64,000 nt of DNA from Candidatus Poribacteria bacterium (GTDB lineage Bacteria > Poribacteria > WGA-4E > WGA-3G), in contig VXPE01000050.1 in the NCBI GenBank assembly GCA_009839745.1, positions 1 to 64,000 on the forward strand, written 5' to 3'. Of this stretch, positions 11,662 through 20,735 are shown one piece after another; positions within the stretch are counted from its first letter, which is position 1; every line of letters begins with the position of its first letter. The notes below the pieces were generated by a model. It did not search any database and was not told the DNA's origin. It worked only from the letters and a program-made list of their open reading frames with translations. The position numbers and the translations under genes were made by a program.

Positions 11662-12183
11662 GCATATTTCGCCACTATTACCCTTATTCACGAATTGGTG
11701 CATATTGCACTCGGTGAAAGTGTTATCCAGAATACAGGTTTTGAAGCAACTCTCCCCTCCAATTTGGATCCAATTGAGGTTTTCTGCAATCAGGTAGCTG
11801 CCGAGGTTTTAGTTCCTGAAAATGAATTGTTAGAGATAGTAAATTTGGAGATGTTTAAAGAGGAACTACCCAGAATCACTAAGTTCTTTCATGTAAGCCC
11901 TGAAGTTATCATGCGTAGATTGTTGACACTTGGAAAAATTACACGACATGACTATCGAACGTACAGAAACCGCCAATTGGCAAAGTACAAGGACACCCCA
12001 GCGCGAACAGGTGGAGCCGTCCCTTATCATAATCGGCTTCTCAATACCTCCGGTGAGTACTTCGCACGAACTGCTTTTACAGCTTATTATGAGCAGAAAA
12101 TCACACGTGCCGAGTTAGCTTCCGTTCTTTCCAATTGTGACACAAAACACCTTGCTAAAATTGAGGGTACTATCTTCGCATGA
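11662..12183 (+). pseudogene. 5'-truncated ImmA/IrrE-family metalloprotease (antitoxin-type)
   Basis: The frame is open from 11662 and encodes the zinc motif HELVH in TLIHELVHIALGES. The ImmA/IrrE helices follow (DPIEVFCNQVAAEVLVPENEL, ITKFFHVSPEVIMRRLLTLGKI), then a C-terminal helical region to FARTAFTAYYEQKITRAELASVLS. Complete relatives have an N-terminal helix-turn-helix and about 60-150 further residues before HExxH. Here only 85 nt separate the motif from the previous gene, and no ATG or GTG with a ribosome site precedes HExxH. TTG 11695 or GTG 11698 would begin inside the motif. I therefore call a decapitated gene that may still be transcribed. Its stop overlaps the DUF4411 start (ATGA). 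A+T content is higher than in neighbours, suggesting transfer. Confidence 0.7.
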
Positions 12184-12854
12184 ATTCATTTCTTAATCGT
12201 GATCAGATAATTTACAGTCTTGACACGAGCGCGTTAATTGCTGCCTTTCATGAACGATACCCAATCGAAAACTTCCCATCTTTGTGGCGTAAGATTGAGG
12301 AATTGATAAAAAACGATCGACTGAAAATGTCACAAATTGTTTTTGATGAAGCAATGAGAGATACGGATATAAAACAATGGTGCGACGAGTATCAATTAAA
12401 GCCATACTTTCAAGTACCAATCGATGAATTCGTGCAGGAGCAAGTCAGCAAAGTGTTATCGGAATTTCCAAGGTTGGTGGACAACCGAACTGGAAGATCA
12501 GGGGCTGACCCGTGGGTTATTGCTTTGGCGATGATTACTCAAAACTGTATCGTTGTGACAGAGGAAAATCCCACGAATAGCGAAAATAGACCAAAAATTC
12601 CCGATGCCTGTGCCCATTTTAACCTTCAATGCATCAAGGTAGTCGATCTAATAAAAGAGAAAACTGGATCTTTGAATAGACAAGGAGCAATCCCGCGCTT
12701 GACCGAAAACCGAAAACCTGCTATACTGCTGAAAAATTACGGAGACGGAGTTTCAAATACGTGGATTCGCCTAAACGTCCAAACCAAGACGCACTCTATC
12801 AAGCACTCAACATCTACCGCGATGCCATGCGCCCTTTTATTCTCAGAAACCTGA
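12180..12854 (+). CDS. DUF4411-family PIN-like protein (putative toxin), stop codon lost
   Basis: The N-terminal 160 residues match the DUF4411 PIN-like fold: YSLDTSALIAAF (first acidic residue), FDEAMRD and GADPWVIALA (late acidic residue), the layout of PIN RNases. Genes of this family usually sit behind an HTH-ImmA/IrrE partner as a toxin-antitoxin-like pair; the ATGA overlap with the ImmA remnant fits. The normal end would be near DLIKEKTG (about 12663), but the frame continues for another 60 low-complexity residues into the next gene, overlapping it by 94 nt. The tail also contains a strong promoter for the DUF499 gene, so it is probably a read-through after loss of the stop. Whether the toxin is active is unknown. 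Confidence 0.65.
   Translation: MNSFLNRDQIIYSLDTSALIAAFHERYPIENFPSLWRKIEELIKNDRLKMSQIVFDEAMRDTDIKQWCDEYQLKPYFQVPIDEFVQEQVSKVLSEFPRLVDNRTGRSGADPWVIALAMITQNCIVVTEENPTNSENRPKIPDACAHFNLQCIKVVDLIKEKTGSLNRQGAIPRLTENRKPAILLKNYGDGVSNTWIRLNVQTKTHSIKHSTSTAMPCALLFSET
12699..12727 (+). promoter_or_regulatory. Sigma-70-type promoter for the DUF499 gene
   Basis: TTGACC (12699-12704), a 17-nt spacer and TATACT (12722-12727) lie 33 nt before GTG 12761, inside the abnormal tail of the DUF4411 frame. Confidence 0.65.
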
Positions 12855-15800
12855 AAACAGTGCAAGGTTTATCCCCAGAAGATCGCTTCCAAAACGAAGC
12901 AGCTATAGATATTGGCGATTTCCCACACCTCTTCAGAAGATATTGGCACAATGCCTTTGAACAACGTTTCGATCCAGATCGCGATATTCGGAGTGCCGTC
13001 GGTATTGTAACGGAAGCACGAAATCAGGTTTCGCACCCTGGAACGGAAGACATCGATCTCAGCTACGCCCTTTCACGACTCCACGACATTGCAGATGTAC
13101 TTGGGCAAATCAACGCCCCCGACCAGAAGCGAGAAGTTGAAGCCATTCGCGACACATTACTCACCCGCGCGGCATCAACTGTAGACCCGAAACCGAAACT
13201 ACCGCGTAGAAAGACATCCGACCTCAAATCATGGCGTGATGTCATACGTCCCAATACGGATGTCATCGAAGGCACCTTCCGAAAATCGGAATTCGCCGCC
13301 GACCTTCAAGAGGTTTTTGAAGGAAACGCGAAAACGCCAGAATACGGTGAAACCGAAATATTCTTCAATCAGACATACATCACCCCCGGACTCCGAGAAT
13401 TGTTAGTCAATACCTTAAAACGCCTGGGTGGCAAAGGCGGTAATCCGGTTATCCAACTCAAAACCGGTTTCGGGGGTGGCAAGACGCATAGTCTTATCGC
13501 CCTCTATCACCTTGTTACTGGGATTAACATCCTGAGAGAACTTCCAGCAGATGGCGATTATGCAAGACTGCGGAAAGAAATAGAGGACATTCTGGAAGAG
13601 GCAGAATGGGAACACAACGCGCCGCTTAATGCGAATGTCTCTGTCCTCGTCGGCACTTATCTCTCGACCACAGATGCAGATGAAACCCAACAGGGAGACC
13701 CGCTCAACACCCTTTGGGGCATGATGGCGGATCAACTCGGTGGGCAAGATGGGTATAATATCGTAAGAAAAGCCGCACGCGAAGGCACCGCCCCCGGCGG
13801 AAATCAATTGGACGCGCTCTTTGAACACGTTGGACCCTCTGTGATTTTGATAGATGAACTTGTCGCTTATGTGAGCAACGTCCAAGGTGTCACACGAGAA
13901 AGTATCTACACCTTCTTTCAAGCGGTTACGGAGTCCGTCAAGAGATCTGAAAACGTTACGCTCATCGCTACCTTACCAGAAGGGCAGACGCACGCAGGCG
14001 GAGAAGGCGGGTTAAGTGTCCTTGAAGCACTCGAATCTATCCTTGAAAGAGTTGACGCTGTCTCAATACCTTTAGAAATGGACAACGCTTATGAGGTTGT
14101 GCGGAGGAGATTGTTCGGGAGTGTAATTGATGAGACAGAGCGAGACCTAACTTGTGAAGCGTTTAGAAGGATGTACCAGAACTCGCGCAACGAATACCCC
14201 GAAGGGGTCAATGATCAACGCTACTTACAGCGTATGAAAGACTGCTACCCGATACACCCAGAGGTATTTGACCGGCTTTCCCAAGACTGGGCAGTAATTC
14301 CTGGATTTCAACGCACCCGCGGCGTGCTGCGGATGATGGCAACCTGTATCTCCCGGCTCTACCAAGAACAGGATCCTTCTCTGCTGATAATGCCCGCGAA
14401 CCTCACACTTGACGATCCGGCACTCGCCGATGAATTCACGAGACTGCTTGCAAGATCCGGTGGACATTGGGATCCCATTGTCCAAGAGATAGACAGCCAC
14501 GGTTCCCGCACTGAACAGATCGATAGGAGCTCTCAAAGTTTCATTGAGATAGGCAATGCAGCACGCCGAACCGCACGCACCATCTTCCTTGGAAGTGCCA
14601 CAGGGGGCGCGGTCAAAGGCATCACGAATCGTCAAATTCACCTCGGGGTTGTTGAACCCGGACAAGGGGTCGCCGTTTACAATGATGCCCTCAGCAGAAT
14701 GAGTGGCAACCTCTACTTCCTCTATAATCTTGACGATAGATATTACTTCCACACCCAGGAGAACCTCAACAAGGTCGCTATAGATCGCGCTGCGGAATAT
14801 ACCGACACAGATATCTATGCTGAGATCGTTTCACGGTTGGAAAGAGCCATCGGACGCGATCCGAGTGTGAACGTCTGCCCAACGTCTCCAAGTTCCGTCA
14901 AGGACTCCGAAACGATTCAATACGTTATCCTTCACCCACAGGCATCCCTACCAAGCCGCGAAAAGGAGACGGATATAGCCAGTGATACAGCACGCCACAT
15001 CCTTACATACAGCGCGGAGGATGATCGACAGCGCACCTTCAGGAACACACTGCTCTTCATTGCCCCACGGCGAGACGCTATCCGAGACCTCATAAATCTT
15101 GTTAAAAAGTACCTCGCGTGGAACTCTATCATGAACGGGGATGTTCTAAACAGTGCTCTCACCACGCTTGAAGGAGCAAGGTTAGACCAAACCACGGAAA
15201 ACCTCGAATCCGCTGAGGATGCGGTAACAACGGCGATCTTCAAGGCATACCGATGGACACTCGCTCCCACGCAAGCAGACCCGCAGAAGAACATCTACGG
15301 CTTCTCTATCGCTGATGCAAAAATTGATGATCGTAGAATCATCAGTCGGCTCCGTGACAAATTTGTTGAAGACGACGCAATCATCACAAAAATAGCGCCT
15401 GAAATCTTCTCGACACAATTGCAGCAATACATCTGGAGCAGCGATACCTATCAAGAGCACATCAGCATAGATACACTCTGGGAACTCATGGCACAAAACG
15501 TCTACATGCCACGGATGAGGGACCGAAGTGTTTTAGCAACGTGCATTAGAGAGGGAATTGCAGCAGGTGTATTCGGATATGCAAGTGCTTATGAGGGGAA
15601 CGACTATCGCAACTTCCGTTTTGAAGAACAGATTGGTGGGCTCCGAGTGGCTGAAGGTAGCACAGCCGTCCTCATAAACCCTGAGATGGCAAAACTGATT
15701 AAAGAGGAACAACCCGACCCCGTCAAGCCACCGTCCCCGAAACCGGGTCCAGATCCAGAACCTATAGACTCACCTCCCGATATTGAGGAAACACCCCAAG

Positions 15801-16027
15801 GCCCCACGCACGTGGTTGTTACCAAAGCCTTGCAGTTAGAATTACCCTTCATGGACGAAATAGAAACCTTACAGGACGAAATCGCTCGCACCCTCCAAGC
15901 CGATGGCGGAAACGTGAAAATCGAAATCACCGTTACTGCCAATAAATCGGACGGCTTTTCCGAAAACACCACCCGCGCCGTAAAGCAAAACAGCGAACAC
16001 CTCAAAGCCGAATTCGAGAGCAACTAA
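12761..16027 (+). CDS. HEPN (Swt1-type)-DUF499 AAA-like ATPase, predicted defence protein
   Basis: The 1088-residue protein starts at GTG 12761 with GGAG 10 nt upstream. Residues about 10-125 resemble the Swt1-type HEPN domain and contain the RNase motif R-x4-H in EARNQVSHP (R87, H92). The remainder is a DUF499 (COG1483) ATPase with Walker A GFGGGKTHS (about 235-243), Walker B VILIDELVAYVS (about 363) and the YPIHPEVFDRLSQDW and GFQRTRGVLRMMA segments. DUF499 ATPases are typically encoded beside DUF1156 adenine methylases in defence islands, exactly as here (16892-19678). The ATPase is therefore likely the sensing or translocating part of a restriction-like system, with HEPN as a possible RNA-cutting effector. 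The dedicated helicase/PLD nuclease found in some relatives is not seen. Confidence 0.85.
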   Translation: MDSPKRPNQDALYQALNIYRDAMRPFILRNLKTVQGLSPEDRFQNEAAIDIGDFPHLFRRYWHNAFEQRFDPDRDIRSAVGIVTEARNQVSHPGTEDIDLSYALSRLHDIADVLGQINAPDQKREVEAIRDTLLTRAASTVDPKPKLPRRKTSDLKSWRDVIRPNTDVIEGTFRKSEFAADLQEVFEGNAKTPEYGETEIFFNQTYITPGLRELLVNTLKRLGGKGGNPVIQLKTGFGGGKTHSLIALYHLVTGINILRELPADGDYARLRKEIEDILEEAEWEHNAPLNANVSVLVGTYLSTTDADETQQGDPLNTLWGMMADQLGGQDGYNIVRKAAREGTAPGGNQLDALFEHVGPSVILIDELVAYVSNVQGVTRESIYTFFQAVTESVKRSENVTLIATLPEGQTHAGGEGGLSVLEALESILERVDAVSIPLEMDNAYEVVRRRLFGSVIDETERDLTCEAFRRMYQNSRNEYPEGVNDQRYLQRMKDCYPIHPEVFDRLSQDWAVIPGFQRTRGVLRMMATCISRLYQEQDPSLLIMPANLTLDDPALADEFTRLLARSGGHWDPIVQEIDSHGSRTEQIDRSSQSFIEIGNAARRTARTIFLGSATGGAVKGITNRQIHLGVVEPGQGVAVYNDALSRMSGNLYFLYNLDDRYYFHTQENLNKVAIDRAAEYTDTDIYAEIVSRLERAIGRDPSVNVCPTSPSSVKDSETIQYVILHPQASLPSREKETDIASDTARHILTYSAEDDRQRTFRNTLLFIAPRRDAIRDLINLVKKYLAWNSIMNGDVLNSALTTLEGARLDQTTENLESAEDAVTTAIFKAYRWTLAPTQADPQKNIYGFSIADAKIDDRRIISRLRDKFVEDDAIITKIAPEIFSTQLQQYIWSSDTYQEHISIDTLWELMAQNVYMPRMRDRSVLATCIREGIAAGVFGYASAYEGNDYRNFRFEEQIGGLRVAEGSTAVLINPEMAKLIKEEQPDPVKPPSPKPGPDPEPIDSPPDIEETPQGPTHVVVTKALQLELPFMDEIETLQDEIARTLQADGGNVKIEITVTANKSDGFSENTTRAVKQNSEHLKAEFESN

Positions 16028-16088: not shown

Positions 16089-16118
16089 TTGACATTTTCC
16101 ACCGCTTTACGGTATAAT
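16089..16118 (+). promoter_or_regulatory. Consensus promoter giving a leaderless transcript
   Basis: TTGACA (16089-16094), an 18-nt spacer and TATAAT (16113-16118) are followed 6 nt later by ATG 16125. Transcription would begin at the start codon. It would drive the small genes and the DUF1156 methylase. Confidence 0.65.
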
Positions 16119-16124
16119 ACAAGC

Positions 16125-16382
16125 ATGGCACAAGACTACGACAATCTGGGAAAAAGTTTATGGACAGATCACGCCCTCGACCTTTCGAGATTTGTTCTTG
16201 GCGAGGAAGATGTTGAAGTCCTTGAGGACCTTGACACCGAGCAACAGACAGTTATTTCTCGACAGACCTATATCGTAAAACGCGTCCGCGTCAACAATCA
16301 ACAGGCAATCCTACACGTCGAATTGCAACTCCGCGACAGCACTCGCAAACCGAATCTCTGTCTTTGGTGGGATCGTCTATAA
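16125..16382 (+). pseudogene. N-terminal remnant of an Rpn-type PD-(D/E)XK nuclease
   Basis: The 85-residue frame begins MAQDYDNLGKSLWTDHALDL and runs through HVELQLRDS, the E-x-Q strand of Rpn-like recombination-promoting nucleases, before ending in an unrelated LCLWWDRL tail. Family members are roughly 300 residues, so most of the protein is missing. The +1 frame downstream reads ISVFGGIVYNAELLDRLIPEE and joins the C-terminal Rpn-like region at 16420, so the locus looks like an internally deleted, frameshifted gene. ATG 16125 is chosen over TTG 16089 because the latter lies inside the -35 box. Confidence 0.65.
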
Positions 16383-16419
16383 CGCTGAATTGTTAGACCG
16401 ACTCATACCGGAGGAACTT

Positions 16420-16644
16420 ATGCAAGAATCTAAAACCTACCAACGCCAAATGGAAAGAGCTGCCAGACAAACTACCATCGAAAATACTCTGGCTTTGCTT
16501 AAAAAGCGGTTCCATACAGAGGAGGTGAGTGCCTTAACACCTGCACTCCAGAATATTAATGATTTGGAACGCCTCAAACAATTGTTAGTCGCAGTACCCG
16601 ATATGCAAAGCCTTGAAGCCTTTGCACAGATGTTACACGAATAG
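16420..16644 (+). CDS. 74-aa Rpn C-terminal-like protein, copy 1
   Basis: This 74-residue, largely helical protein (MQESKTYQRQMERAARQT, then LTPALQNINDLERLKQLL) matches the C-terminal helical tail that normally follows the nuclease domain of Rpn-like proteins. It has its own Shine-Dalgarno site (GGAGG 16410-16414, 5 nt from ATG). A near-identical second gene follows at 16664. It is in the same transcription unit as the DUF1156 methylase. It may be a decay product of the nuclease gene, or an independent small protein kept because it gained its own ribosome site; the sequence alone does not decide. Confidence 0.55.
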   Translation: MQESKTYQRQMERAARQTTIENTLALLKKRFHTEEVSALTPALQNINDLERLKQLLVAVPDMQSLEAFAQMLHE

Positions 16645-16663
16645 AAGCATGCAATAGGAACTT

Positions 16664-16888
16664 ATGCAAGAATCTAAAACGTACCAACGCCAAATGGAAC
16701 GAGCTGCCAGACAAACTACCATCGAAAATACTCTGGCTCTGCTTGAACTGCAATTTCACACAGAAGCGGTGCGTGCCTTAACACCTATGCTCCAAAACAT
16801 TGATGATTTGGAACGGCTTAAGGAACTCCATCTCGCAGCACCTCGGGTGCCGAACATCGAAACTTTCGCGCAAAAACTGATTGACTGA
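16664..16888 (+). CDS. 74-aa Rpn C-terminal-like protein, copy 2
   Basis: It is exactly the same length as the gene at 16420 and starts with the same MQESKTYQRQMERAARQT sequence. The first 90 nt are almost identical, while the rest has diverged at many sites without a frameshift (LELQFHTEAVRALTPML versus LKKRFHTEEVSALTPAL). That pattern suggests a tandem duplication in which both copies stayed open. The start is preceded by TAGGAACTT, as in copy 1. It ends 3 nt before the DUF1156 gene, implying translational coupling. Confidence 0.55.
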   Translation: MQESKTYQRQMERAARQTTIENTLALLELQFHTEAVRALTPMLQNIDDLERLKELHLAAPRVPNIETFAQKLID

Positions 16889-16891
16889 CGT

Positions 16892-19678
16892 ATGCCCAAT
16901 TACCGAAAAAAACTCATCGAGGTTAACATCCCTCTCCAAGCCATCAACGTAGAGTCCGCAAAAGACGCTTCCCTCACACATGGTCACCCATCCACACTCC
17001 ACCGCTATTGGGCACGCCGTCCTCTCGCTGCATGCCGTGCTGTGATTTTCGCCAGCATGGTGGATGACCCTTCCGAATGCAAAGACGAATTCCCAACCGA
17101 ACCCGAACAGAACGCCGAACGCACCCGACTCCACAACCTCATGAAGCGACTCGTGGTCTGGCAAAATAGCAAAGACGAAAACCTATTGGCAGAGGCACGC
17201 TATGAAATCGCATATTCTGTCGCCCGCAACAACGGAGAAAATCTAACGCTTTTTCGTAAAAAATTTAAAAACGACCCAGATGCAGTCCTAAAATACCTCC
17301 GCGACCATTGCCCTCCTGTCTACGATCCATTTTGTGGCGGCGGCTCCATTCCGCTTGAGGCACAACGTTTGGGATTACGCGCCCGCGCCTCCGACCTAAA
17401 CCCGCTCCCCGTCTTGCTTAACAAAGCAATGATTGAACTGCCCCCAAAGTTCCACAACCAGAAACCTGTCAACCCTGATGCTGATCCCATGGGAATGTTC
17501 ACCGGCACAGGTAGCAGGAGAACGCGCGTCCCGTGGAAAGGCACTGCTGGTTTAGCAGATGACATCCGCTACTATGGCAAGTGGATGCGTGAGAAAGCGT
17601 ATGAACGCATCGGGCACCTCTATCCAAAAGCACAATTACCAGATGGCACCTCTGCCACAGTGGTGGCGTGGTTGTGGGCACGCACGGTGCCGTGTGCCAA
17701 TCCTGCTTGCGGTCTCCAGATGCCCCTGATGAAAACGTTTCAACTATCCAAAAAGAAAGGCAACGAGCATTGGGTTAAACCCGTTGTTGATAGAGAATCA
17801 AACACAATTTCATGGGTTGTGCAAACCAATGATGAAGGAGTCCCGAAGGCCGGTATAGTAAACAAAAATGGTACTTCCTGCATCGCTTGTGGCAGTGCAG
17901 TCAAATTGCCTTATGTACGTGAACAAGCAAAAGCAGGCAAAATGAAAACAATAATGACAACAGTGGTCGCTGAGGGTAATCGCAGAAAACTGTTCTTGCC
18001 ACCCACGGATGAGAATATTCAAGTAACACAGTCTGCCGAATCCTCTTGGCGACCGAAGGGTAAACTGCCAAATCAAGCTTTGGGATTCAGGGTCCAGGGG
18101 TATGGAATCACACAATGGCATCAACTTTTTAGCGAACGTCAGTTAACTGCCCTGAAGCTCTTTGGCGATGCTCTAGGTGAAACTCATAATCAAATGATGC
18201 GGGATGGTGCTTCTTCTGACTATGCCTCTGCAATTTGTATCTACCTGTCTCTTGCTATTGGAAGGTTGGCTGAGAGCGGATGTTCCTTTGCTTGGTGGCA
18301 AGATACAGATGAGGTAGTTAGGACCATTTTCACGCGTCAAGTAATTAACATGAGTTGGAGTTTTGCCGAAACAAATCCATTCTCTAAGACAACACAGAAT
18401 TGGATGGCACAAGTGGAATGGATTGCAAAGGTGATTGAAAACTTGACTACTTCCGCAAACGTGGGAGAGGTGTATCAGGCAGATGCTGCCACATTGCAGG
18501 CTACCCATAGACCCGTTATCGTTACGGATCCGCCCTACTACGACAACATTGGCTACGCTGATTTGTCCGATTTCTTCTATGTTTGGCTAAGGCCTGTGCT
18601 TCGCGATATATATCCACATTTGTTTGCTGGCATGATGACCCCAAAGGAGGAAGAAATAGTTGCCGCGCCGCGGTTTGAAGATGCCAAGCGACACTTTGAA
18701 GAATTGCTGAACAAGACACTACTGCGACTGCGCTCATACTGCTCCAACGAGTTTCCTACTTCCATCTTTTATGCCTATAGACAACAAGAAGAAGATCAGG
18801 ATGGAAAAACCTCCACTAGATGGGAAACAATGCTCACAGCAATTGTCAATGCAGGTTTTCAAATCGTTGGCACTTGGCCGATGCGCACAGAACAACCCAA
18901 AGCACTTAAGACAAATAAAAACGCACTCGCGTCTTCTATTGTTCTCGTCTGCCAACCGCGGTCTGAAAATGCCCCTGCTATAACCCGTAACGAATTCCTA
19001 CAAGAACTGAAAAAGGAGATGCCACCGGCACTTGATAGCCTCACACGCATTGCCAATATCAGACCTGTTGATCTCACACAAGCCGCCATTGGTCCAGGCA
19101 TGGAGATCTACTCCCGCTATAGTAAGGTAACACGAATCAATGGTGAAATTGTCCCAATACGTGAGGTGCTTATGCACATCAACACCGAAATCTCGGCATA
19201 CCATGAAAAGGAGACGGGTGACCTGGATCCCGAGAGTCAGTTCTGTTTGACGTGGTTGAAGCAACACGGCTACACAGAAGGCAATTTCGGAGACGCACAA
19301 GTATTAGCAACAGCAAAGGGTGTGGACATCAACACCATGCACAATAAAGTATTGCTCAGAGGCCGTGGTAAGGTTCGGCTCCTGAAACCGGAAGAATACG
19401 CAGAGCGTGAAAACAGCGAAGAGATGACAGCATGGGAGGGGTGCCTGCGGATGATGTGGCATCTCTCAGGTGGAGAAAACAGCGGCGGCATCTCGGGATG
19501 CACCACCGTTGCCCGTTCCATGAACGACTACGAATCCGCAAAACGTCTGGCACGTCTCCTATACGCCTACTATGAATCCCGCGGCGATGCCGAAAGCGCA
19601 GCACACTATAACAACCTCGTAACCCAGTGGCAATACATTTCGCAATCCATGGGATCACCGGAGCAATTAATGTTGTAG
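16892..19678 (+). CDS. DUF1156 adenine-specific DNA methylase with Zn-ribbon (COG1743)
   Basis: The 928-residue protein opens with the classic DUF1156 segment (LIEVNIPLQAINVESAKDAS, then GHPSTLHRYWARRPL). Methyltransferase motif I is DPFCGGGSIPLEA (about 145) and the catalytic motif IV is TDPPYYDNIGYADLSDF (about 545), consistent with N6-adenine methylation using AdoMet. A zinc ribbon is inserted between them (CANPAC about 267, CIAC about 330). With the HEPN-DUF499 ATPase it forms the core of a predicted defence or restriction-like module, in which methylation would mark self DNA. No separate restriction endonuclease is obvious. Confidence 0.88.
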   Translation: MPNYRKKLIEVNIPLQAINVESAKDASLTHGHPSTLHRYWARRPLAACRAVIFASMVDDPSECKDEFPTEPEQNAERTRLHNLMKRLVVWQNSKDENLLAEARYEIAYSVARNNGENLTLFRKKFKNDPDAVLKYLRDHCPPVYDPFCGGGSIPLEAQRLGLRARASDLNPLPVLLNKAMIELPPKFHNQKPVNPDADPMGMFTGTGSRRTRVPWKGTAGLADDIRYYGKWMREKAYERIGHLYPKAQLPDGTSATVVAWLWARTVPCANPACGLQMPLMKTFQLSKKKGNEHWVKPVVDRESNTISWVVQTNDEGVPKAGIVNKNGTSCIACGSAVKLPYVREQAKAGKMKTIMTTVVAEGNRRKLFLPPTDENIQVTQSAESSWRPKGKLPNQALGFRVQGYGITQWHQLFSERQLTALKLFGDALGETHNQMMRDGASSDYASAICIYLSLAIGRLAESGCSFAWWQDTDEVVRTIFTRQVINMSWSFAETNPFSKTTQNWMAQVEWIAKVIENLTTSANVGEVYQADAATLQATHRPVIVTDPPYYDNIGYADLSDFFYVWLRPVLRDIYPHLFAGMMTPKEEEIVAAPRFEDAKRHFEELLNKTLLRLRSYCSNEFPTSIFYAYRQQEEDQDGKTSTRWETMLTAIVNAGFQIVGTWPMRTEQPKALKTNKNALASSIVLVCQPRSENAPAITRNEFLQELKKEMPPALDSLTRIANIRPVDLTQAAIGPGMEIYSRYSKVTRINGEIVPIREVLMHINTEISAYHEKETGDLDPESQFCLTWLKQHGYTEGNFGDAQVLATAKGVDINTMHNKVLLRGRGKVRLLKPEEYAERENSEEMTAWEGCLRMMWHLSGGENSGGISGCTTVARSMNDYESAKRLARLLYAYYESRGDAESAAHYNNLVTQWQYISQSMGSPEQLML

Positions 19679-20357: not shown

Positions 20358-20735
20358 ATGTCCGACCCTGTTACCCTCTACGTCCTCCAATATCAACTCA
20401 AGCGCAACCTCCGTCCCTTCACGCGCGAAGAGATCCAGCAATTACCGACCGGACGCAGCGGGGTATACGTGTTATGGCGGAAAACCGGCACCGAGGGACG
20501 AAACGAATGCCTCTACGTCGGAGAATCCACAACCTGCGTGCGGAGGCGGTTGTTGCAGCACCATTCAAACGCACAGAATGACGGACTCCATTCACAACTT
20601 CGGATGTTTGGGCGGATTATCCAATTTTCGGTAGAATTCACAGAGGACGCACAAGAAACAGTGGCACTGGAAACTGAACTCATCCGCGAGTGGAAACCGA
20701 AAACCAATCTGAAAATGAATCCCGACAAATCCTAA
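20358..20735 (+). CDS. GIY-YIG domain protein
   Basis: The 125-residue protein has a GIY-YIG nuclease core: GVYVLW (35-40) replaces GIY, LYVGES (52-57) carries the YIG position, and VRRRLLQHH supplies the catalytic Arg region. ETELIREWKPKTNLKMN supplies the Glu and the final Asn typical of this fold. Single-domain GIY-YIG proteins include DNA-repair and mobile-element nucleases; no linker or DNA-binding domain is present. It follows the defence-like island but has no overlapping partner, and the start ATG 20358 has no strong ribosome site. Confidence 0.75.
   Translation: MSDPVTLYVLQYQLKRNLRPFTREEIQQLPTGRSGVYVLWRKTGTEGRNECLYVGESTTCVRRRLLQHHSNAQNDGLHSQLRMFGRIIQFSVEFTEDAQETVALETELIREWKPKTNLKMNPDKS

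Follow-up and report, generated by a model that had tools for sequence, protein, structure and literature searches.

Two tandem RpnS-type small genes, probable orphan antitoxins, in an Hma-type locus of Candidatus Poribacteria

Between the remnant of an Rpn-like nuclease gene and the gene of a DUF1156 DNA methylase, the stretch of Candidatus Poribacteria DNA analysed here (64,000 nt, hereafter the window) carries two consecutive reading frames of 74 codons. Are they leftovers of a decaying gene, regulators of their neighbours, or small genes with a history of their own, and how did two of them come to stand side by side?

The two reading frames and their parent gene

A sequence-only reading of the window had described the pair as identical in length, nearly identical at the start and diverged in the second half, and had placed it between an Rpn remnant and the methylase. 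All of this holds (Table 1). The two copies differ at 53 of 222 positions, with 3 differences within the first 81 nt (positions 18, 37 and 76, all silent) and 50 within the other 141. The hypergeometric probability of as few as 3 differences in the first 81 nt is 7e-9, and chance similarity of the two frames was rejected on how the differences are distributed. A 19-nt spacer lies between the copies in the window and likewise in G026, the genome of a second species, in which copy 1 and the deletion junction discussed below recur nucleotide for nucleotide; an artefact of one assembly was rejected for both on the strength of this identity. The stop of copy 2 is followed after 3 nt by the ATG of hmaB. 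Ribosome sites had been claimed for both copies, and both have one, although the AGGA of copy 2 is weak beside the strong GGAGG of copy 1.

Table 1. Features of the Hma-type region, in coordinates of the window.
Feature	Position	Strand	Basis
HmaC-type DUF499 ATPase	12761..16027	+	PADLOC HmaC, E 1e-221
Sigma70-type promoter of the Rpn-like gene (TTGACA-18-TATAAT), with 6 nt between -10 box and ATG	16089..16118	+	12/12 consensus match
Rpn-like PD-(D/E)XK-type nuclease, N-terminal remnant of 85 aa (~RpnL residues 1-76 plus 9 out-of-frame residues)	16125..16382	+	RpnL N-domain profile, 143 bits; 86% identity to the RpnL of L139 over 76 aa
Junction of a net 344-nt frame-shifting deletion, ~RpnL codons 77-190 gone	16342..16349	+	Alignment with the unbroken L039 gene; same junction in G026
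RpnL codons left over (ISVFGGIVYNAELLDRLIPEEL), in frame with copy 1 and carrying its Shine-Dalgarno	16354..16419	+	Alignment with the unbroken L039 gene
Shine-Dalgarno GGAGG of copy 1, predicted internal translation start of the ancestral gene	16410..16414	+	Shine-Dalgarno counts in near-full-length RpnL genes
Copy 1, RpnS-type small protein, 74 aa (ATG to TAG; frame open from 16279)	16420..16644	+	Tail profile, 124 bits (profile built from this set's tails); AF2 mean pLDDT 92, helix 2-30
Weak Shine-Dalgarno AGGA of copy 2	16656..16659	+	Sequence
Copy 2, RpnS-type small protein, 74 aa (ATG to TGA)	16664..16888	+	Tail profile, 124 bits; C-half 93% identical to copy 2 of G026
Helix-1 segment of copy 2, apparently replaced by copy-1-type sequence; the replaced tract probably ends (3') before 16739	16664..16744	+	Nucleotide identities to copy 1 and to copy 2 of G026
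HmaB-type DUF1156 DNA methylase	16892..19678	+	PADLOC HmaB, E 2e-278

With the copy-1 protein as query, tails of this kind were recovered in 43 of 60 genomes, the window's own included, and in unbroken relatives the tail forms the C-terminus of a protein of ~280-298 aa (RpnL), of which the window retains only ~residues 1-76 and those from ~191 on. Tails and remnant gave sub-threshold matches only when compared with Pfam and NCBIfam, and the tail profile found nothing relevant among PDB sequences. A profile of 28 full-length relatives matched five cyanobacterial proteins, four annotated as Rpn family and one as DUF4351 (three of the five are more than 90% identical), with an hhalign probability of 99.3% and an E of 2e-20 over columns 4-287. 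On this comparison, the parent gene is homologous to Rpn-family proteins along almost its whole length. The link to annotated Rpn proteins runs via a paralogue in the same genome (L005) together with the profile comparison; tblastn of an hma-type RpnL directly against plasmids found nothing. The hma-type proteins scanned matched neither the curated TIGR01784 nor any Pfam Rpn model, and every one of the four TIGR01784 matches in the window's genome falls below the cut-off. Because two of the four annotated cyanobacterial relatives are themselves without a Pfam match (the other two match DUF4351 only), these missing matches are partly a limit of the models; with the hma-type proteins out of reach of the curated ones, we keep to the cautious name "Rpn-like". 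The AF2 model of the N-domain is of low confidence (mean pLDDT 68.7), and its best fold matches are PD-(D/E)XK nucleases that stay below the Z 8 guide, such as McrC (Z 7.2, rmsd 3.4, 112 aligned) and EndoMS (Z 6.3, rmsd 3.7, 105 aligned). The other five tail matches in the window's genome (5.04 Mb, 96% complete) are only 29-36% identical, and no other close copy was found in it.

The flanking HmaC-type ATPase and HmaB-type methylase liken the locus to the Hma and DUF499-centred BREX-related systems (PADLOC models; PMC12839542, as far as its available text describes them). Unlike those systems, an Rpn-like nuclease gene stands here between hmaC and hmaB, and the contig shows no SNF2 helicase (HmaA): eight SNF2-domain matches occur in the genome and none on this contig, for which reason we call the locus Hma-type only. 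PD-(D/E)XK nucleases are named as auxiliary effectors in the available part of PMC12839542, from whose main text the word "Rpn" is absent. In this genus the Rpn-like gene lies upstream of hmaB, and directly after hmaC in most loci. The 18 hma loci referred to below were chosen by HmaB identity alone, being those of 27 HmaB places with at least 73% identity; among the other nine, four showed no Rpn, the upstream side being cut by a contig end in two.

Internal start, promoter and deletion

That the tail of an Rpn protein was freed as a stand-alone gene had been suggested from the sequence. Both copies are indeed free-standing Rpn C-terminal tails, but the small cistron was not first created by decay, as relatives already have it inside the nuclease gene, led by a Shine-Dalgarno. 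Of 39 near-full-length RpnL genes, 37 have the five-base core of this signal in front of the tail ATG, whereas it precedes none of the 297 other ATGs in frame within these genes. All 38 sequences with Glu at codon -3 write it as GAG, while GAG accounts for 38% of the Glu codons in the genes as a whole, and codon -4 ends in G in 39 of 39 despite changes between Pro, Gln and Ser (CCG 29, CAG 7, TCG 3). Near-full-length here means at least 195 of 237 profile positions, so that some of the 39, for example L048 and L052, lose their 5' end to a contig end or an upstream break; L070, a full-length gene without the tail ATG, is not among them. Together, the core, the GAG and the final G form the pattern expected from selection for an internal start, tempered by the fact that silent sites are invariant in 9 of 132 conserved RpnL columns, five of which are far from that start. 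Judged by its internal-start signal only, copy 1 was already a cistron within the nuclease gene before the deletion. The same design is described for RpnS of E. coli and C. difficile in the available text of PMC10327210.

The promoter of the parent gene is equally regular. Of 48 distinct starts of Rpn-like genes, the window's included, 42 have exactly 6 nt between the end of the -10 box and the ATG, and 44 reach a promoter score of at least 10 of 12, compared with 2.3% of shuffled upstream sequences; the 48 are related sequences, broken genes among them. A Shine-Dalgarno-like four-mer occurs at only 6 of these toxin starts. Since a -10 box so placed puts the start of transcription at or next to the ATG, the sequence predicts a leaderless toxin mRNA and an antitoxin led by a Shine-Dalgarno on one transcript, an arrangement that would keep the antitoxin in excess. 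One transcript could in this way yield different levels of RpnL and RpnS; the reasons for their differing levels are given as not known in the discovery paper (PMC10327210), in whose available text the term "leaderless" is absent. Among the open-access PMC papers listed by a search on leaderless mRNA or internal initiation in the context of toxin-antitoxin systems, this paper was the only one on Rpn toxins by title and abstract.

Aligned with the unbroken gene of L039, the deletion in the window spares the tail together with its Shine-Dalgarno and the final RpnL codons. Positions 16305-16662 (358 nt) show zero differences between the window and G026, single 100-nt stretches without a difference occurring also at 15600 and 16900, whereas HmaC, HmaB and the remnant differ by 7-10%. 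An identical block amid genes that differ this much probably reflects a recent exchange between the two lineages. The nuclease remnant itself still shows constraint between the two genomes (17 synonymous and 10 nonsynonymous differences, w 0.13), so that the deletion is probably recent, in which case open tail reading frames say little on function after loss of the toxin.

The composition of copy 2

The freed tail had been supposed to have then duplicated, and here the comparison with G026 leads elsewhere. The C-half of copy 2 belongs to another tail type: it is 93% identical to that of copy 2 of G026, in the same place, versus 65% to copy 1, and simple tandem duplication of copy 1 was rejected on these figures. 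Only the helix-1 segment matches copy 1, at 96% nucleotide identity (78 of 81 nt), versus 59% to copy 2 of G026 with a 12-nt gap counted, the G026 segment being 12 nt (4 codons) shorter at the orthologous place. This composition points to gene conversion of the recognition helix in copy 2, which would have turned a 23-residue helix into one of 27, equal to that of copy 1. The mosaic form was found in the window's genome only. The helix and C-half combination of G026 recurs in nine tails, four of them in near-full-length genes, and is for this reason likely the older form. Two of the three silent differences of copy 2 from copy 1 are private, being present in neither copy 1 nor copy 2 of G026, which argues against a simple assembly chimera.

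The overwritten segment corresponds to a predicted long first helix (residues 2-30, pLDDT 92), followed in the AF2 model of the tail by four shorter helices. Foldseek with this model gave no E below 0.001, and 7TH0, the structure of E. coli RpnAS, was not among the matches listed; structural re-alignment of 116 Foldseek chains to the model returned generic helical bundles, with a designed protein as the best (Z 9.3). According to the available text of PMC10327210, the long first helix of E. coli RpnAS is the dimer interface (7TH0), the first helix of RpnS proteins varies in length by four-residue steps, and one added four-residue repeat stopped RpnCS counteracting RpnC. The tails studied here are alike in this respect, with helix-1 segments of 23, 27 or 31 aa in 81 of 81, steps of exactly four.

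How unusual is a shared first helix? Tails numbered 137, or 98 distinct after removal of duplicates, and the helix, dN/dS and pair counts exclude 17 with a non-ATG aligned start. Among 3240 pairs of tails, helix 1 is at least 93% identical with a C-half at or below 75% in five, the reverse is the case in four, and both parts reach at least 93% in 13. Within 16 tandem pairs, helix 1 is identical in three, 96% identical in one, 67-81% in three and below 60% in nine, and is thus well matched within the locus in only four. The pair of G026, left out of the 16 since its copy 1 duplicates that of the window, is a further mismatch. Of the four well-matched pairs only the window's adjoins hma genes, the other three (L115, L124, L131) lying in stretches without them. 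When labels were permuted among the tandem pairs, helix 1 reached p 0.0002, the C-half 0.055 and equal length 0.009, values owed mainly to these same four pairs.

Constraint, possible function and rival explanations

The sequence-only reading had proposed a search for free-standing homologues and a comparison of substitutions, taking the absence of such homologues together with neutral change between the copies as a sign of decay. Free-standing homologues exist: eight of the 18 hma loci hold nine extra tails between them, all nine open, and L109, an hma locus not among the 18, combines two free tails with a full-length gene. Of the 18, 12 retain an unbroken nuclease frame and 16 an unbroken tail of that gene, frames rather than active-site residues being judged; breakage in 6 and 2 of the 18, respectively, shows no clear difference per codon. 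One C-half type, present in 6 of 60 genomes, was found free-standing only, each time in an ORF of 68-94 aa. Nor do the substitutions look neutral. Nearest-neighbour pN/pS of the C-half is 0.18 for 39 tails in near-full-length genes, 0.24 for 15 behind partial genes and 0.23 for 27 classed as free, the last value being computed on all 27 although five (L039, L068, L069, L126, L089) are attached to or behind a broken nuclease ORF or of another type, which leaves 22. Between the window and G026, the C-half of copy 2 has 7 synonymous and 3 nonsynonymous differences (P 0.003-0.011 versus neutrality). Judged by these comparisons, free-standing tails are a recurring gene type under constraint.

Open frames of 242-259 aa with two degenerate tail domains each were also observed downstream of an Rpn-like gene or its remnant (L039:8888-9664, L042:8466-9236, L092:3623-4384, L093:2574-3299). 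The two that were scanned, from L039 and L093, gave no NCBIfam match and no Pfam match above the cut-off; these frames are possibly fused double antitoxins.

We consider it probable that the two genes of the window are RpnS-type antitoxin cassettes, one released by the deletion and the other with its helix replaced, and that they are now orphan antitoxins. The sequence evidence suggests, as a beginning, an Rpn-like nuclease gene upstream of hmaB whose last ~74 codons formed an internal cistron with its own Shine-Dalgarno; the 344-nt deletion then shifted the frame and took the nuclease core, sparing this tail as copy 1. Comparison with relatives suggests that copy 2 was an older free-standing cassette of the other tail type before its helix 1 was overwritten. 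Antitoxin activity is what we infer from E. coli Rpn, where precedent for it is published (PMC10327210, available text), and an antitoxin is our best guess for the inhibitor that had been suggested from the sequence. By this analogy, RpnS proteins would dimerise via helix 1 and would bind the matching RpnL and silence it; with helix 1 replaced in copy 2, both small proteins would have it in common and should pair mutually and with the same RpnL class. They would be orphans because no other close tail was found in their genome (96% complete), a state that may be passing because the deletion looks recent. The likeliest residual benefit would be the silencing of related Rpn toxins arriving by gene transfer.

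Plain decay, by which the tails would be non-functional leftovers of the core deletion in which mutations have not yet accumulated, seems to us rather unlikely. It agrees with the recent look of the deletion, with the imprint of constraint that the N-terminal part of the remnant keeps and with a stretch, 16305-16662, that is the same in two species whose flanking genes are 89-93% identical, as it does with hma loci whose own tail is broken by a stop at codon 7 (G001) or missing (G035). It accounts poorly for copy 2, which was apparently free-standing in the same place, behind the same spacer, before the split from G026, and whose C-half is constrained; for the tail type known only from short ORFs; and for the promoter and the Shine-Dalgarno of copy 1, both of which are intact in the window. 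The tails might also have been taken over by the Hma-type system as subunits or regulators, for example through translational coupling to hmaB or binding of HmaC, their function no longer having to do with an Rpn toxin. Rpn material upstream of hmaB in 18 of 18 hma loci would fit such a role, as would the 3-4 nt between the stop of the last free tail and the hmaB ATG in five of them (G000, G026, G060, G024, G006). However, 10 of the 18 have no extra free tail, 13 of the 27 tails classed as free lie in stretches (5.5-12 kb) without a match to hmaC, hmaB or GIY-YIG, and E. coli too has free-standing copies behind Rpn genes, so that recruitment appears quite improbable.

The origin of the shared first half admits a rival of its own, namely selection at the protein level for the same helix, or convergence, in place of gene conversion. 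In RpnS, dimerisation and specificity depend on helix 1, so matching could be favoured there, and the PHI recombination test over all 81 tails is not significant (p 0.07). Even so, we would give convergence very little credence: the identity is one of nucleotides, silent sites included, the nearest helix 1 among the 80 other distinct tails is that of the neighbouring copy in both directions, and the helix of copy 2 in G026 is shorter at the orthologous place.

Cassettes released by deletion or altered by helix replacement would be of a known kind, for which the free-standing rpnES (ypaA) of E. coli is the precedent. As far as the available text of Zhong et al. 2023 (PMC10327210) goes, the E. 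coli RpnS small proteins include free-standing rpnES (ypaA) and rpnCS, and share with the genes described here a C-terminal domain of the Rpn nuclease with an internal start led by a Shine-Dalgarno, as well as a free-standing copy directly downstream. Unlike in E. coli, the nuclease of the window is broken, two putative cassettes remain within an Hma-type operon, helix 1 alone has apparently been replaced, and the downstream copy is of another tail type than the upstream one, whereas that of E. coli clusters with its upstream partner (PMC10327210, same text). What is new is the orphan tandem of RpnS genes in an Hma-type locus, the replacement of helix 1, and the conserved promoter with the leaderless toxin mRNA and Shine-Dalgarno-led antitoxin that it predicts. 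Orphan or anti-addiction antitoxins are antitoxin genes kept without a cognate toxin. The window's putative antitoxin genes resemble them in being so kept, but differ in that the antitoxin arose as a gene inside the toxin gene and was released by internal deletion. No mention of Rpn was found in the open-access PMC papers listed by a search on defence in Poribacteria and sponge symbionts.

The pair adds an uncultured phylum to the comparative evidence for a toxin-antitoxin type described recently, whose antitoxin gene is nested in that of the toxin, and catches the moment when an internal deletion makes the nested antitoxin an ordinary gene. It also suggests that the recognition helix is replaceable as a unit, and the natural variants of 23, 27 or 31 residues are usable for specificity tests. 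A wider reading, which we regard as doubtful and put forward tentatively, is that these sponge symbionts keep a small store of antitoxin cassettes in their Hma-type loci, equipped with a dosage switch (a leaderless toxin and Shine-Dalgarno-led antitoxins on the same transcript), that specificity would be changed by swapping the recognition helix only, and that copies without a toxin would persist as immunity against incoming Rpn toxins.

Some neighbouring genes deserve a remark. At 11662-12183 of the window, a gene of the M78/IrrE-like kind lies beside a DUF4411 PIN gene; its open frame has 173 aa, against 278 aa in G026 and 404-415 aa in L050, L057, L058 and L082, and the gene thus looks truncated. 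Downstream of hmaB, 16 of the 18 hma loci have a GIY-YIG nuclease gene (20358-20735 in the window; split in G035), and the contigs of G011 and G013 end before any such gene could show; this gene may be a further part of the hma locus. In L054 (1945-3019), a second Rpn-like gene lies downstream of GIY-YIG and is followed by a short hmaB fragment, as if the Rpn cassette had been copied along with the start of its neighbour.
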